64,000 bases of DNA from Alphaproteobacteria bacterium (GTDB lineage Bacteria; Pseudomonadota; Alphaproteobacteria; Micavibrionales; Micavibrionaceae), in contig JAJFGU010000020.1 of assembly GCA_021775955.1 (NCBI GenBank), positions 124,001 through 188,000 of the forward strand. The letters run 5' to 3'. Within the stretch, counting starts at the first letter, position 1, and each line of letters opens with the position of its first letter. A program made the translations under genes and the position numbers. Below, piece by piece: positions 55,728 to 59,776 of the stretch. A model generated the notes under the pieces. It ran no database searches. It had not been told where the DNA came from and was given only the letters and a program-made list of their open reading frames with translations.

Positions 55728-56483
55728 ATGCGTAAATTTAACGATCCTGTAAAAATCGGTTTCACTCTTCTGGCCTGCTGCGCGCTTGCCGCCTGCAGTG
55801 CCGGGGACCGCATCGCCAACATTGGCAAAGCCCCGGATATGGGGGCAATTACCAACCCGGTGACACAAGCTGGCTATCAACCGATCAGCCTGCCGATGCC
55901 GGCCCCGCAAAATGTTGTGCGCCAGAAAAATTCGCTCTGGCAATCGGACCGTGTGACCTTTTTCAAGGATCAGCGCGCCGCCAATGTCGGCGACATTATC
56001 ACCGTTATGATTGAAATCGACGACAAGGCTGAAATTGATAACCAGACCGACCGCTCAAGAACTTCCGACGAGGGCGCAGCCCTGGACAGCCTACTTGGCT
56101 ATGAATTGGCACTGGACCGCGTTCTGCCGCAAGCCGTTAACAACACGAATCTGGCCCAAGCCGGTGCCACCTCCAGCTATCAGGGTGCAGGCACCACCGA
56201 CCGCGAGGAAAAAATTGAGGTCATGATGGCAGCGCTGATCACGCAAATTTTGCCCAACGGCAATATGGTCATTCATGGGCGTCAGGAGGCGCTGGTGAAT
56301 TTTGAAAAAAGAATTCTGGAGATTGACGGCGTTATCCGCCCGGAGGATATCACGACAAGCAACACGATTTCCTATGAGAAAATTGCAGAAGCACGGATCG
56401 TTTATGGTGGTGAAGGCCAGATAACGGATGTTCAACAGCCGAGATATGGCCAACAACTATACGACATTATCTTCCCGTTCTAA
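55728..56483 (+). CDS. flgH: Flagellar L-ring protein FlgH
   Basis: 251 residues. Lipoprotein signal with lipobox LAAC (about residues 17-20), then NSLWQSDRVTFFKDQRAANVGDIITVMIEIDD, ITQILPNGNMVIHGRQEALVNFE and C-terminal RPEDITTSNTISYEKIAEARIVYGG. Forms the outer-membrane L ring. Followed by a strong terminator. Confidence 0.97.
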   Translation: MRKFNDPVKIGFTLLACCALAACSAGDRIANIGKAPDMGAITNPVTQAGYQPISLPMPAPQNVVRQKNSLWQSDRVTFFKDQRAANVGDIITVMIEIDDKAEIDNQTDRSRTSDEGAALDSLLGYELALDRVLPQAVNNTNLAQAGATSSYQGAGTTDREEKIEVMMAALITQILPNGNMVIHGRQEALVNFEKRILEIDGVIRPEDITTSNTISYEKIAEARIVYGGEGQITDVQQPRYGQQLYDIIFPF

Positions 56484-56573: not shown

Positions 56574-56599
56574 CGCCCCACTTCCATCACCCAAGCGAA

Positions 56600-56770
56600 C
56601 TAAATTTAGCTCTGGACAAGGCAGCCGAAGCAAAACCAAAGGTTTTGTTCGATTCTTTTAAGAAGCAAACAAGTCCTGCGGACTTGCTTTGCGATGAGCC
56701 GCGCGGAATGTACACTTTCGTACATGAGCACGGCGAGACGAAGGATAACGATGTCCGGGGTTAAATTTAG
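56600..56770. repeat. Structured element R3 (171 bp)
   Basis: The outer arms CTAAATTTA...GGACA and TGTCC...TAAATTTAG pair; the five bases that are not Watson-Crick complementary still pair as G-T wobbles or normal pairs. Inside are three hairpins: CAAAACC/GGTTTTG (56631-56647), CAAGTCC/GGACTTG (about 56669-56685) and ATGTAC/GTACAT (about 56708-56725). The middle (GCGCGGAATGTACA...GTACATGAGCACGGCG) resembles repeats I know to be common in alphaproteobacterial genomes. A 71-codon frame through it is not protein-like. It lies between the flgH terminator and the dksA stop. Confidence 0.7.
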
Positions 56771-56775
56771 GAAGC

Positions 56776-57786
56776 TTAGGCGTCGCGTTGGGTTTTTTCC
56801 ATGCGCTCATGCCGCTCCTGCGCCTCTAAACTCAGCGTTGCATTGGGGCGCGCTTTGAGGCGGGCGATTGTAATCGGCTCTCCGGTTTCTTCGCAATAGC
56901 CGTATTCGCCATCATCGATACGATCCAGAGTCTGATTGATCTTGGAAATTAATTTGCGCTCACGATCACGGGTGCGCAGCTCCAGCGCATGATCAGTTTC
57001 CGCAGAAGCACGGTCCGCCATATCCGGTTTTTGCAATTCGGTTTCCTGAAGAGTCTCCTTGATAGTCATCTCGGATTCGCGGATCAGGTCTTCGCGCCAT
57101 TTAATCAGCGCATGCCTGAAATATTCCAGCATGACCGGGCTCATAAAGCCGCCCTTGTCTTTTTCCGGATCGTAATCCGGCGGCACAATAACACTGCTAA
57201 CCGCACCGGTCTTTACCTTGTTTTTCTTCTTAACTTCCGGTTTTTCGCTAACTGCAACCTGTGTCACTATTTTCTTCTCCGCCTTTTTGGGAACCGCTTT
57301 TTTGGGAACTGCTTTTTTTGCTACCTTTTTCTTGCCGGGCATCTTATTGGTCACAATATTTTTCACTTTTGCTTTAATGGTGGTCTTCTTTTTCGGCACC
57401 GCTTTTTTACTCGTCTTTTTTACTGCCTTCTTAGCGGCCGCTTTTTTTGGCAGCACCTTCTTTTTTACCACCTTTTTACTTACTGACTTCTTAACGGCAG
57501 GCTTTTTCTTGGCAATCTTTTTAACGACTTTTTTAGCAGGCGCTTTTTTCGCAACTTTTTTCTTAACCGGCTTTTTGACCGGAGCCTTTTTTGTTACCTT
57601 TTTAGCAACCTTTTTGACAGGCTTTTTCTTAACAATCTTTCTTTTAGCAACGACTTTTTTAACAGCTGCCTTTCTCTTTGCAGGCACCTTTTTAGGGGCC
57701 GCCTTTTTCACAGGTGCCTTCTTCACAGCCTTCTTTTTGGCTGGCATTCTCTTTTTTGCTGCAGGTTTTGCCTTCGCTTTTGCCAT
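56776..57786 (-). CDS. dksA: DksA-family RNA polymerase regulator with a long Lys/Ala-rich N-terminal extension
   Basis: About 336 residues, over twice the usual DksA size. The last about 140 residues are the DksA/TraR fold: coiled coil (MLEYFRHALIKWREDLIRESEMTIKETLQE, ETDHALELRTRDRERKLISKINQTLDRIDDGEYGYC) with the DxxA-type tip (MADRASAE), and the degenerate alphaproteobacterial zinc-finger GYCEETGEPI. The first about 200 are Lys/Ala/Pro/Val repeats (AKKVVKK, KKAPVKK types), as in histone H1-like bacterial proteins. The start at 57786 (MAKAKAKPAA) is favoured; 57804 is possible. Convergent with flgH, upstream of fliX on the same strand orientation. Confidence 0.85.
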   Translation of the reverse strand: MAKAKAKPAAKKRMPAKKKAVKKAPVKKAAPKKVPAKRKAAVKKVVAKRKIVKKKPVKKVAKKVTKKAPVKKPVKKKVAKKAPAKKVVKKIAKKKPAVKKSVSKKVVKKKVLPKKAAAKKAVKKTSKKAVPKKKTTIKAKVKNIVTNKMPGKKKVAKKAVPKKAVPKKAEKKIVTQVAVSEKPEVKKKNKVKTGAVSSVIVPPDYDPEKDKGGFMSPVMLEYFRHALIKWREDLIRESEMTIKETLQETELQKPDMADRASAETDHALELRTRDRERKLISKINQTLDRIDDGEYGYCEETGEPITIARLKARPNATLSLEAQERHERMEKTQRDA

Positions 57787-57865
57787 GGCACGGGCCCCAT
57801 TCACATCAACTTTTTAAAAATGAACGAGAAATATACGTTCGGTTGCGAAGAAAAACAATAAAAAT

Positions 57866-58312
57866 TTAAACCTCTGGCTTCTTCTTATCCAGAGAAACCC
57901 GCATTTTGGCCAATTCCACCTGCGCCCGCAGGTCGATTTCATCCATAATCGAGGTCAGTTCCGGGTCGATAATCTTCTCGCGGTGAGCGGCGACAACATC
58001 AGCAATATCAACCATATGGCCCACTGTCAGCGATCCATTCAGCATCCCCATACGAATTTTATCAAGCTCATCCAAAATGGTACTGGAGCGGCTGTAAGCA
58101 CGGCCTCTGGACGCCCGCTCCGTCGGATCCTCGGCAGCCTGCACAGCCAGCAAACCGTCAACCATGGCAATAGACTGGGTCGTATTGACGGAAGCTGCCT
58201 CAGGTGATTCTGCCGAGACAAAATCACCGAAATTCCCGTCTGCCGAGGCGGTTTTGCCTGATTTTTTGGATTTTGACGGAGCCTGTGTCTGGCCCGGACC
58301 CGAAACTTTCAT
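57866..58312 (-). CDS. fliX: Flagellar assembly regulator FliX
   Basis: 148 residues. A flexible, Ser/Lys-rich start, then the FliX core (AYSRSSTILDELDKIRMGMLNGSLTVGHMVDIADVVAAHREKI and DEIDLRAQVELAKM). In Caulobacter FliX controls the sigma-54 activator FlbD and so links basal-body assembly to later flagellar genes. It is divergent from flgI; the 270-bp gap contains a sigma-54-type site. Confidence 0.9.
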   Translation of the reverse strand: MKVSGPGQTQAPSKSKKSGKTASADGNFGDFVSAESPEAASVNTTQSIAMVDGLLAVQAAEDPTERASRGRAYSRSSTILDELDKIRMGMLNGSLTVGHMVDIADVVAAHREKIIDPELTSIMDEIDLRAQVELAKMRVSLDKKKPEV

Positions 58313-58582: not shown

Positions 58583-59776
58583 ATGTTTCAAGCTCTTTTT
58601 AGAAAAAAGAACAAGGCACAAAAAACAAGAAACAATATGGTGGGTTTCCGGTCGCCGCTCCTCACAATTCTGGGGCTTGCATTAGCGACCGGGGCCTTTT
58701 CTTTTGTGCCCGCCGATACGGCCCAAGCCAAAACCGCACGCATTAAAGATATCGTCGATATCGAAGGTGTACGGGAAAATCAGCTGGTCGGCTATGGTCT
58801 TGTTGTCGGCCTCAATGGCACCGGTGACGGCCTCAACAACGCCCCGTTCACCCGCCAAAGCCTGGAAGCGATGTTAGAGCGCCTCGGCGTCAGCGTCCGC
58901 GATCAGAATATGAATACCGGCAATGTCGCCGCCGTGATGGTGACATCCACCCTACCCCCTTTTACCAATCAGGGCTCGCATATAGATGTGAATATTTCCT
59001 CGCTGGGTGATGCCAGCTCGCTACAGGGCGGTACATTACTGGTGACCCCCCTGATCGCAGCCGATGGCGAAGTTTATGCCGTGGCGCAGGGCGAGATTAG
59101 CATTTCCGGTTTTTCCATCCAGGGCGACGCTGCCACACTAACACAAAATATACCGACCTCGGGCCGCATCGCGAGCGGAGCAATCGTCGAGCGTGAAATT
59201 GACTTTACGCTGGAGGAGCTACAGCAGGTGCGCCTGGCGCTCAAAAACCCCGACTTTACAACCTCGCGCCGCATTGCCCAGGCGATTAACGGCTTTACCT
59301 CGGCGCCGCTGGCCAAAGCAGAAAATTCCGGCAGCGTGCTTTTAAAGCGCCCTGCAAATTATGACGGCTCTATCGTCGATCTGATCACCGATATCGAACA
59401 GCTCCCGATCCAGCCCGATCAGCCGGCCCGCGTTGTCATTAGTGAGCGATCCGGCGTTATCGTCATGGGCTCGAATGTGCGCATCAGCAATGTCGCCATT
59501 GCGCAAAGCTCCCTGACCGTCAAAGTCACGGAAACGCCACAGGTTTCACAAGCCAACCCGTTTGCAGAAGCAGGCGCAACTGTCGTTGTCCCGCGCACCG
59601 ATTTATCCGTCAATACCGGCAATGATGTAAAACTTGCCCCCTTGGAAACCGGCGTGACGTTGCAAGACCTTGTGACGGGCCTCAACCGCCTTGGCATGCA
59701 GCCGCGCGATATCATCACCATCTTACAAGCCATCAAGGCAGCCGGCGCGCTGCAGGCAGAAATAGAGGTGATGTAA
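58583..59776 (+). CDS. flgI: Flagellar P-ring protein FlgI
   Basis: 397 residues. Signal peptide around MVGFRSPLLTILGLALATGAF, then ARIKDIVDIEGVRENQLVGYGLVVGLNGTGDG, NTGNVAAVMVTSTLPPF, and the C-terminal TLQDLVTGLNRLGMQPRDIITILQAIKAAGALQAEIEVM, all typical of FlgI. Forms the periplasmic P ring. The true start may be the ATG at 58637. Stop overlaps the flgJ ATG. Confidence 0.97.
   Translation: MFQALFRKKNKAQKTRNNMVGFRSPLLTILGLALATGAFSFVPADTAQAKTARIKDIVDIEGVRENQLVGYGLVVGLNGTGDGLNNAPFTRQSLEAMLERLGVSVRDQNMNTGNVAAVMVTSTLPPFTNQGSHIDVNISSLGDASSLQGGTLLVTPLIAADGEVYAVAQGEISISGFSIQGDAATLTQNIPTSGRIASGAIVEREIDFTLEELQQVRLALKNPDFTTSRRIAQAINGFTSAPLAKAENSGSVLLKRPANYDGSIVDLITDIEQLPIQPDQPARVVISERSGVIVMGSNVRISNVAIAQSSLTVKVTETPQVSQANPFAEAGATVVVPRTDLSVNTGNDVKLAPLETGVTLQDLVTGLNRLGMQPRDIITILQAIKAAGALQAEIEVM

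Follow-up and report, generated by a model that had tools for sequence, protein, structure and literature searches.

The window, i.e. the whole stretch of 64,000 nucleotides that was analysed, was found to contain a dksA gene on the reverse strand (56776..57786; 336 codons and a stop codon), with the ATG start codon at position 57786 and the TAA stop codon at 56776-56778. The encoded protein was found to contain an N-terminal Lys/Ala/Val/Pro-rich tail (57187..57786, reverse strand; residues 1-200; net charge +82) for which regular structure was not predicted, followed by the DksA core (56779..57186, reverse strand; residues 201-336) with a conserved VPPDYDP junction, a coiled coil and a C-terminal domain containing one cysteine. 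The open reading frame (57804..56776, reverse strand) contained no internal stops and counted 342 codons when begun at a GTG and 336 when begun at the ATG at 57786; a GGGG sequence (57795..57798, reverse strand), likely the ribosome-binding sequence, was present 8 nucleotides upstream of this ATG. The fusion of DksA to a Lys/Ala tail that had been proposed in the sequence-only reading was thus borne out, as a tail of about 200 residues followed by a complete DksA was found in one reading frame of 336 residues.

The dksA gene was found to be flanked by fliX on the upstream side (57866..58312, reverse strand, as dksA; PF10768, E 2.3e-36) and by the convergent flgH on the downstream side (55728..56483, forward strand; PF02107, E 7.1e-55), with the divergent flgI lying past fliX (58583..59776, forward strand; PF02119, E 4.8e-137). 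The Pfam matches of FliX, FlgH and FlgI confirmed the earlier placement of the gene beside fliX in a flagellar region. The flgH-dksA intergenic region contained an imperfect 29-nucleotide inverted repeat (56590-56618 and 56752-56780; 76% complementary, arms 133 nucleotides apart), which extends to the dksA stop codon and is possibly a mobile palindromic element.

The protein was found to match TIGR02420 (E 9.8e-40; 135.4 bits against a cut-off of 115.5; model positions 1-110) and the Pfam domains DksA_N (56917..57129, reverse strand; residues 220-290 from the ATG; 1.5e-26) and zf-dskA_traR (56803..56910, reverse strand; residues 293-328 from the ATG; 2.3e-11), each above its cut-off. The Pfam scan of the whole protein returned these two domains and a weak HC2 match and nothing else, and the CarD_CdnL_TRCF core domain was absent from it. 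The best sequence match of the core in the PDB was E. coli DksA (1tjl), and Pseudomonas DksA2 (4ijj) was aligned too. The D-x-x-D-x-A residues at the coiled-coil tip are those that matter in DksA; in the sequence alignment, PDMADRA of the window protein stood opposite PDPVDRA of E. coli, and the tip residues D255, D258 and A260 were kept and were invariant across 11 aligned rows. In a structure model of the core (142 residues, made without an alignment; mean pLDDT 70.6), two long helices were predicted, and the fold was matched best to 5vsw (E 8.6e-6), followed by 1tjl and 4ijj (E 8.6e-6 to 2.5e-5; TM about 0.5). The core carries a net charge of -8 over its 136 residues.

The earlier description of a standard DksA with a zinc-finger-like end held for the TIGR02420 match and the coiled coil but not for the zinc finger, in which, of the four cysteines that bind zinc in E. 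coli DksA, a single one was kept (C298). Zinc binding by the window DksA is unlikely because of the three missing cysteines. The single cysteine was found to be common to the other 10 aligned relatives (11 rows), so the one-cysteine state is normal for the group; four cysteines are unnecessary for the TIGR02420 score, and Pseudomonas DksA2 (4ijj) likewise reads CQETGEPI. A second DksA/TraR-type gene, the only other one found in the genome of the window, was present as a 113-codon frame with a weak match (G000:C14:23142-23468).

The tail (residues 1-200) was found to contain 82 Lys, 3 Arg, 33 Ala, 34 Val, 16 Pro and 3 Asp plus Glu residues, with no Phe, Trp or Tyr. The comparison to histone H1 made in the sequence-only reading stood for composition, the tail being Lys/Ala-rich, free of aromatic residues and strongly positive (net +82), but not for the H1-type profiles, which stayed below their cut-offs in HC2 (PF07382; 20.4 of 40 bits) and in hist_H1_lk_Burk (NCBIfam NF038053; 21.8 of 80 bits). 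The term H1-like is therefore used here for a likeness of composition and not for family membership. The full-length structure model (mean pLDDT 54.9) gave no useful fold match; the low pLDDT of the tail is consistent with disorder, as weak evidence from an alignment of 11 rows.

The core was searched in 58 genomes drawn from the genus, the family and the order, of which 55 were matched. The genus was represented by four genomes, i.e. that of the window (G000), UBA5703 (G001), Alphaproteobacteria bacterium OFTM68 (G002) and Micavibrio sp. DHS20C02 (G003), with dksA frames of 345, 329, 345 and 357 codons, respectively, whereas most others among the 55 matches were of 141-179 codons. Frames like the 113-codon DksA/TraR-type paralogue were also present in G002 and G003. 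The tail was present in all four genus genomes, three times complete and once with a run of N inside it (G001). The tails of G003 (211 residues) and G002 (203 residues) open with MAKAK like that of the window, and the tail of G001 opens with MAKTK followed by the N run, its middle being unseen. The HC2 profile reached 44.4 bits against the cut-off of 40 in the dksA frame of G003 only as a sum of neighbouring matches.

The tail was found to drift fast in sequence and length, that of G000 being 46-49% identical to those of its sisters, whereas the net charge varied little among the three complete tails (+82, +80 and +76). Near-constancy of net charge is the safer statement, because the alignment of repetitive sequence exaggerates conservation. 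Between G003 and G002 the tail showed pS of 0.65 and pN of 0.13, and 25 of the 69 aligned Lys-Lys codon pairs differed as AAA/AAG; between G000 and either of these two, synonymous differences were saturated.

A GGGG sequence was found shortly upstream of the tail-preceding ATG in all four genus genomes. The tail-less relatives start 21 codons upstream (-21) of a conserved core FM; in G000, G002 and G003 no ATG was present within 49 codons of this FM, and only GTG/TTG codons occurred there. An in-frame GTG at -13 was shared by all four genus members and by a tail-less relative whose start codon is ATG. The tail is thus likely to be translated from a start upstream of it, as judged from these sequence features, and is unlikely to be an artefact. 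Two objections had been foreseen in the sequence-only reading. A start only at the DksA domain is unlikely, since the short-form ATG is absent and a GGGG-ATG precedes the tail, the codons nearer the core being GTG/TTG; an assembly error at the repeats is likewise unlikely, since three further genus genomes in separate records (one with the N run) have the tail.

The family survey covered 104 Micavibrionaceae genomes, of which 98 contained a DksA match (E <= 0.001), with a tail defined as at least 60 residues. Such tails were found in 9 of the 98 genomes and in four genera, i.e. in 4/4 genomes of the window's genus (g1), 3/5 of g22, 1/1 of g18 and 1/2 of g14, and most Micavibrionaceae were without one; the remaining family genomes were classed by frame length, and in one genome (G080) the gene was truncated at the end of its contig. 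In g22, the long tail was lacking from two genomes, each a single contig (2.46 and 2.48 Mb), in which only a MATKTKAK-like start was present, and short Lys-rich N-termini of DksA were also seen in other genera of the family. In a tree built by a quick method from four proteins encoded nearby (44 rows), the presence of the tail was found to need at least four changes, all four forced by well-supported branches, a count that does not separate gain from loss. The order flgI-fliX-dksA-flgH was identical in tailed and tail-less family members wherever the genes were found (five genes tested). The fusion of a stand-alone H1 gene into an adjacent dksA was considered and found no support in this five-gene test, the order being the same with and without the tail.

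The class survey covered 385 alphaproteobacterial genomes, of which 332 were matched at E <= 1e-20; four family members were left out and 321 of the remaining 328 match rows were assessed. All 34 frames of at least 200 residues were read, and a basic Lys-rich N-terminal tail was found in 7 of them, from six families (G261, G283, G343, G431, G225, G242 and G249). Not all of these are Lys/Ala tails, as that of G242 is Lys/Arg-rich with 5% Ala and that of G249 is a mixture of Lys and Arg. The tail of G261 is less certain because of an ATG within it at -31. The tails of G343 and G431 (L176 and L177) were found to contain alternating repeats of the KAKAKTKAKVKAK type and not KKxxxKK, with a similar composition. 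One shorter frame (G330; 199 residues), read in addition to the 34, contained a basic N-terminal part of 53 residues; the class count is a lower bound because frames below 200 residues were mostly unread. The other 27 of the 34 long frames were not counted as tailed, two of them being ambiguous, namely G486, which is Arg/Lys-rich but has a good ribosome-binding sequence ahead of an ATG at -16, and G178, in which an Arg-rich stretch immediately precedes an ATG at -16.

In the phylum sample, 141 of 145 genomes were matched, 105 of them outside the class. Nine frames outside the class were of at least 200 residues, and a clear tail was found in four of these (G529, G580 and G584 of family f195, and G537); the weakly basic N-terminal part in f192 (G520 and G574; +9 in G574) and the short basic N-terminus of G570 were not counted. 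Lys/Ala tails on DksA were found in gammaproteobacteria, Xanthomonas included. The core of G529 was 94% identical to that of Xanthomonas sacchari, so f195 is probably the Xanthomonas family or close to it, and the annotated X. sacchari DksA (WP_082028934.1; 383 residues) opens with VAAKKPAKKAVQAAKK. The tail was N-terminal in every DksA read, C-terminal tails being outside the search. The architecture, for which a search of related genomes had been suggested, was thus found in four Micavibrionaceae genera and beyond, and basic DksA tails appear to have been gained or lost several separate times in related and in distant bacteria. That the tail recurs in different lineages is of greater interest than the one gene.

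Lys/Ala tails were not confined to DksA. In other Micavibrionales (L155-L174), the HC2 profile was found to match such tails on proteins read as L22, L17, S17 and L30, and on YajC-like, PntA-like, phasin-like and membrane proteins (names by reading), as well as stand-alone Lys/Ala proteins, so that the order seems to be prone to them. Within the genus, HC2 matches were found in dksA (G000, G002 and G003), an L30-like protein (G002) and a MucR-like gene region (G000), and none in G001. The latter region, on contig C15 of the window's genome (L041:3204-4595, forward strand), encodes a regulator of the ROS/MUCR type (PF05443, E 4.5e-44), whose C-terminal Lys/Arg/Ala tail, about 270 residues long, scored 96 bits with HC2, above the cut-off. 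The first 6 kb of C15 contained 62-70% GC as against about 51% in the window, and this contig end may therefore be foreign DNA or misjoined. The idea that a DksA tail replaces a stand-alone H1-like protein did not hold as a rule, as one genome (G081) contained both a tailed DksA and a separate HC2 frame of 72.8 bits.

On balance, it appears somewhat probable that the gene encodes the genome's main DksA and that this protein bears a translated, disordered and polycationic N-terminal tail by which DksA would be held near DNA or another polyanion. The core is predicted to still enter the secondary channel of RNA polymerase and to act with ppGpp. The tail, with +82 over 200 residues, would most likely bind DNA, or nucleic acids of any kind, irrespective of sequence, and might thereby concentrate DksA locally around the nucleoid and the transcribing polymerase, as a long disordered electrostatic tether that would work in the manner of CarD. 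We infer that the tail is disordered, that it binds nucleic acid and tethers DksA, and that it may affect transcription; its partner might also be RNA, the ribosome or polyphosphate. The sequence-only reading was supported in part: the fusion, its position and its H1-like composition held and are retained in the genus, and the tethering of DksA to DNA put forward there is a possibility. A DksA-specific story is weakened by the occurrence of like tails on other kinds of protein in the order.

These tails raise the rather unlikely alternative of a lineage-wide habit, by which Lys/Ala low-complexity tails are readily gained at the ends of proteins and are tolerated as tags for solubility or polyanion affinity, with little effect specific to DksA. 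It accords with the tails on L22, L17, S17, L30, YajC, PntA-like, phasin-like and membrane proteins, a need for DNA not being obvious in, for example, the PntA-like, YajC-like and phasin-like ones, with the at least four changes on the family tree, with the short Lys-rich N-termini of DksA and with the variation of tail length and sequence within the genus. A mere habit is harder to reconcile with a charge held between +76 and +82 in three complete genus members and with the low pN relative to pS in the closest two, and DksA is tailed in distant lineages too, N-terminally wherever read. The polyanion might instead be polyphosphate, nascent or ribosomal RNA or a condensate, and the tail would then link a stringent-response regulator to polyphosphate granules or ribosomes. 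This is improbable as an explanation in its own right. A polycation would bind DNA too, so the idea is compatible with the preferred reading of a tail that holds DksA near a polyanion. The window locus contained no pointers to polyphosphate or ribosomes, and PhaF (+35) was not enriched with polyphosphate by the criteria in the consulted text of PMC9239181; the same text, however, describes AlgP, with its KPAA region, as associated with polyphosphate granules and cites a title that ties E. coli DksA to polyphosphate accumulation, and ribosomal proteins of the order bear like tails.

That the tail is missing from the working protein, through an internal start near the core, cleavage or an assembly error, is highly improbable. 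A processed DksA was seen beside the long form in Xanthomonas euvesicatoria (PMC5559785, available text), in-frame GTG codons occur near the core, and the N run in G001 indicates that assembly was difficult there. The GTG at -13 that is common to the genus, however, is also present in a tail-less relative with an ATG start, the GGGG-ATG upstream of the tail is shared while the short-form ATG is lost, and both the lysines and the reading frame are kept in separate genomes; the long form in Xanthomonas was moreover seen by mass spectrometry and start-codon mutagenesis (PMC5559785, available text).

A wider proposal, that tailed DksAs are convergent DNA-anchored and nucleoid-associated secondary-channel regulators, which arose independently in several Pseudomonadota lineages including Xanthomonas and act also as H1-like nucleoid proteins, is tentative and somewhat doubtful. 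If it is true, the stringent response would be physically coupled to chromosome binding. If the tails were added repeatedly and bind DNA, DksA, which is commonly presented as a regulator that contacts polymerase and not DNA, would have a second, nucleoid-binding activity in several groups, among them a genus of crop pathogens, and such an activity would be invisible to work on E. coli DksA. Relatives with and without the tail, at a single syntenic locus, may further serve as natural replicates for the effects of a basic disordered tail on a transcription factor.

The window protein is itself a member of the DksA family, and the tailed DksA is a recurrent architecture of which no description was found in the literature searched, where no account of a Lys/Ala tail on DksA was met and subscription papers were mostly outside the scope. 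The core of the window protein was aligned along the length of E. coli DksA (1tjl, 5vsw) with the coiled-coil tip residues kept; unlike it, E. coli DksA has no tail and contains four zinc cysteines, and it is introduced in the text consulted of PMC4182748 as an example of a factor that binds polymerase without binding DNA. In a survey of low-complexity regions in prokaryotes, those rich in lysine are connected with the binding of DNA and, where they belong to ribosomal proteins, of nucleic acid (PMC6821194, in the part available).

The DksA of Xanthomonas resembles that of the window in its long Lys/Ala/Pro-rich N-terminal tail before the core (N-terminal part of 262 residues and net +49 in X. 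sacchari) but belongs to the Gammaproteobacteria, starts with GTG and contains 21% Lys plus Arg in this part as against 41% in the window; the gene neighbours of X. sacchari dksA also differ. This comparison of tails uses the X. sacchari sequence, and X. euvesicatoria is likened to it by protein length only. In the proteogenomic study of X. euvesicatoria 85-10, DksA was annotated with 147 residues but detected with 256, and its translation most likely begins at the first GTG according to mass spectrometry and start-codon mutagenesis, with a processed form alongside the long one (PMC5559785, available text); from these data, a long DksA exists in cells of Xanthomonas. N-termini much longer than annotated were given there also for grpE (403 vs 172), rho (599 vs 420) and cheB2 (613 vs 369). 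The words lysine and histone are absent from the main text of PMC5559785, where no discussion of an H1-like composition was found, and in a paper on X. citri DksA the protein is treated as a usual family member, with 'N-terminal' and 'lysine' absent from the main text.

Pseudomonas AlgP and PhaF, as described in the available part of PMC9239181, likewise contain long Lys/Ala/Pro repeat tails that bind DNA or are thought to do so, the KPAA repeat region of AlgP being of 154 residues with a net charge of +55. Unlike that of the window protein, these tails are C-terminal, on partner domains that are associated with polyphosphate or PHA granules; AlgP associates with polyphosphate granules and, when polyphosphate is absent, co-localises with the nucleoid region. 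The closest likeness of design was found in Myxococcus xanthus CarD, in which a regulator that binds RNA polymerase carries a basic, disordered, DNA-binding tail (PMC8156234, available text). Its core, of the CarD_CdnL_TRCF family, is unrelated to DksA and sits on the polymerase beta subunit, so that CarD is not a secondary-channel factor, and its own tail is C-terminal and HMGA-like, with AT-hook and acidic stretches. According to the same available text, CarD without its tail was still functional with diminished activity, and a tail of this kind may therefore be dispensable; CarD was also found to function with the tail swapped for histone H1 or the C-terminal region of H1 (PMC8156234). The resemblance of the window DksA to CarD is one of design and not of membership.
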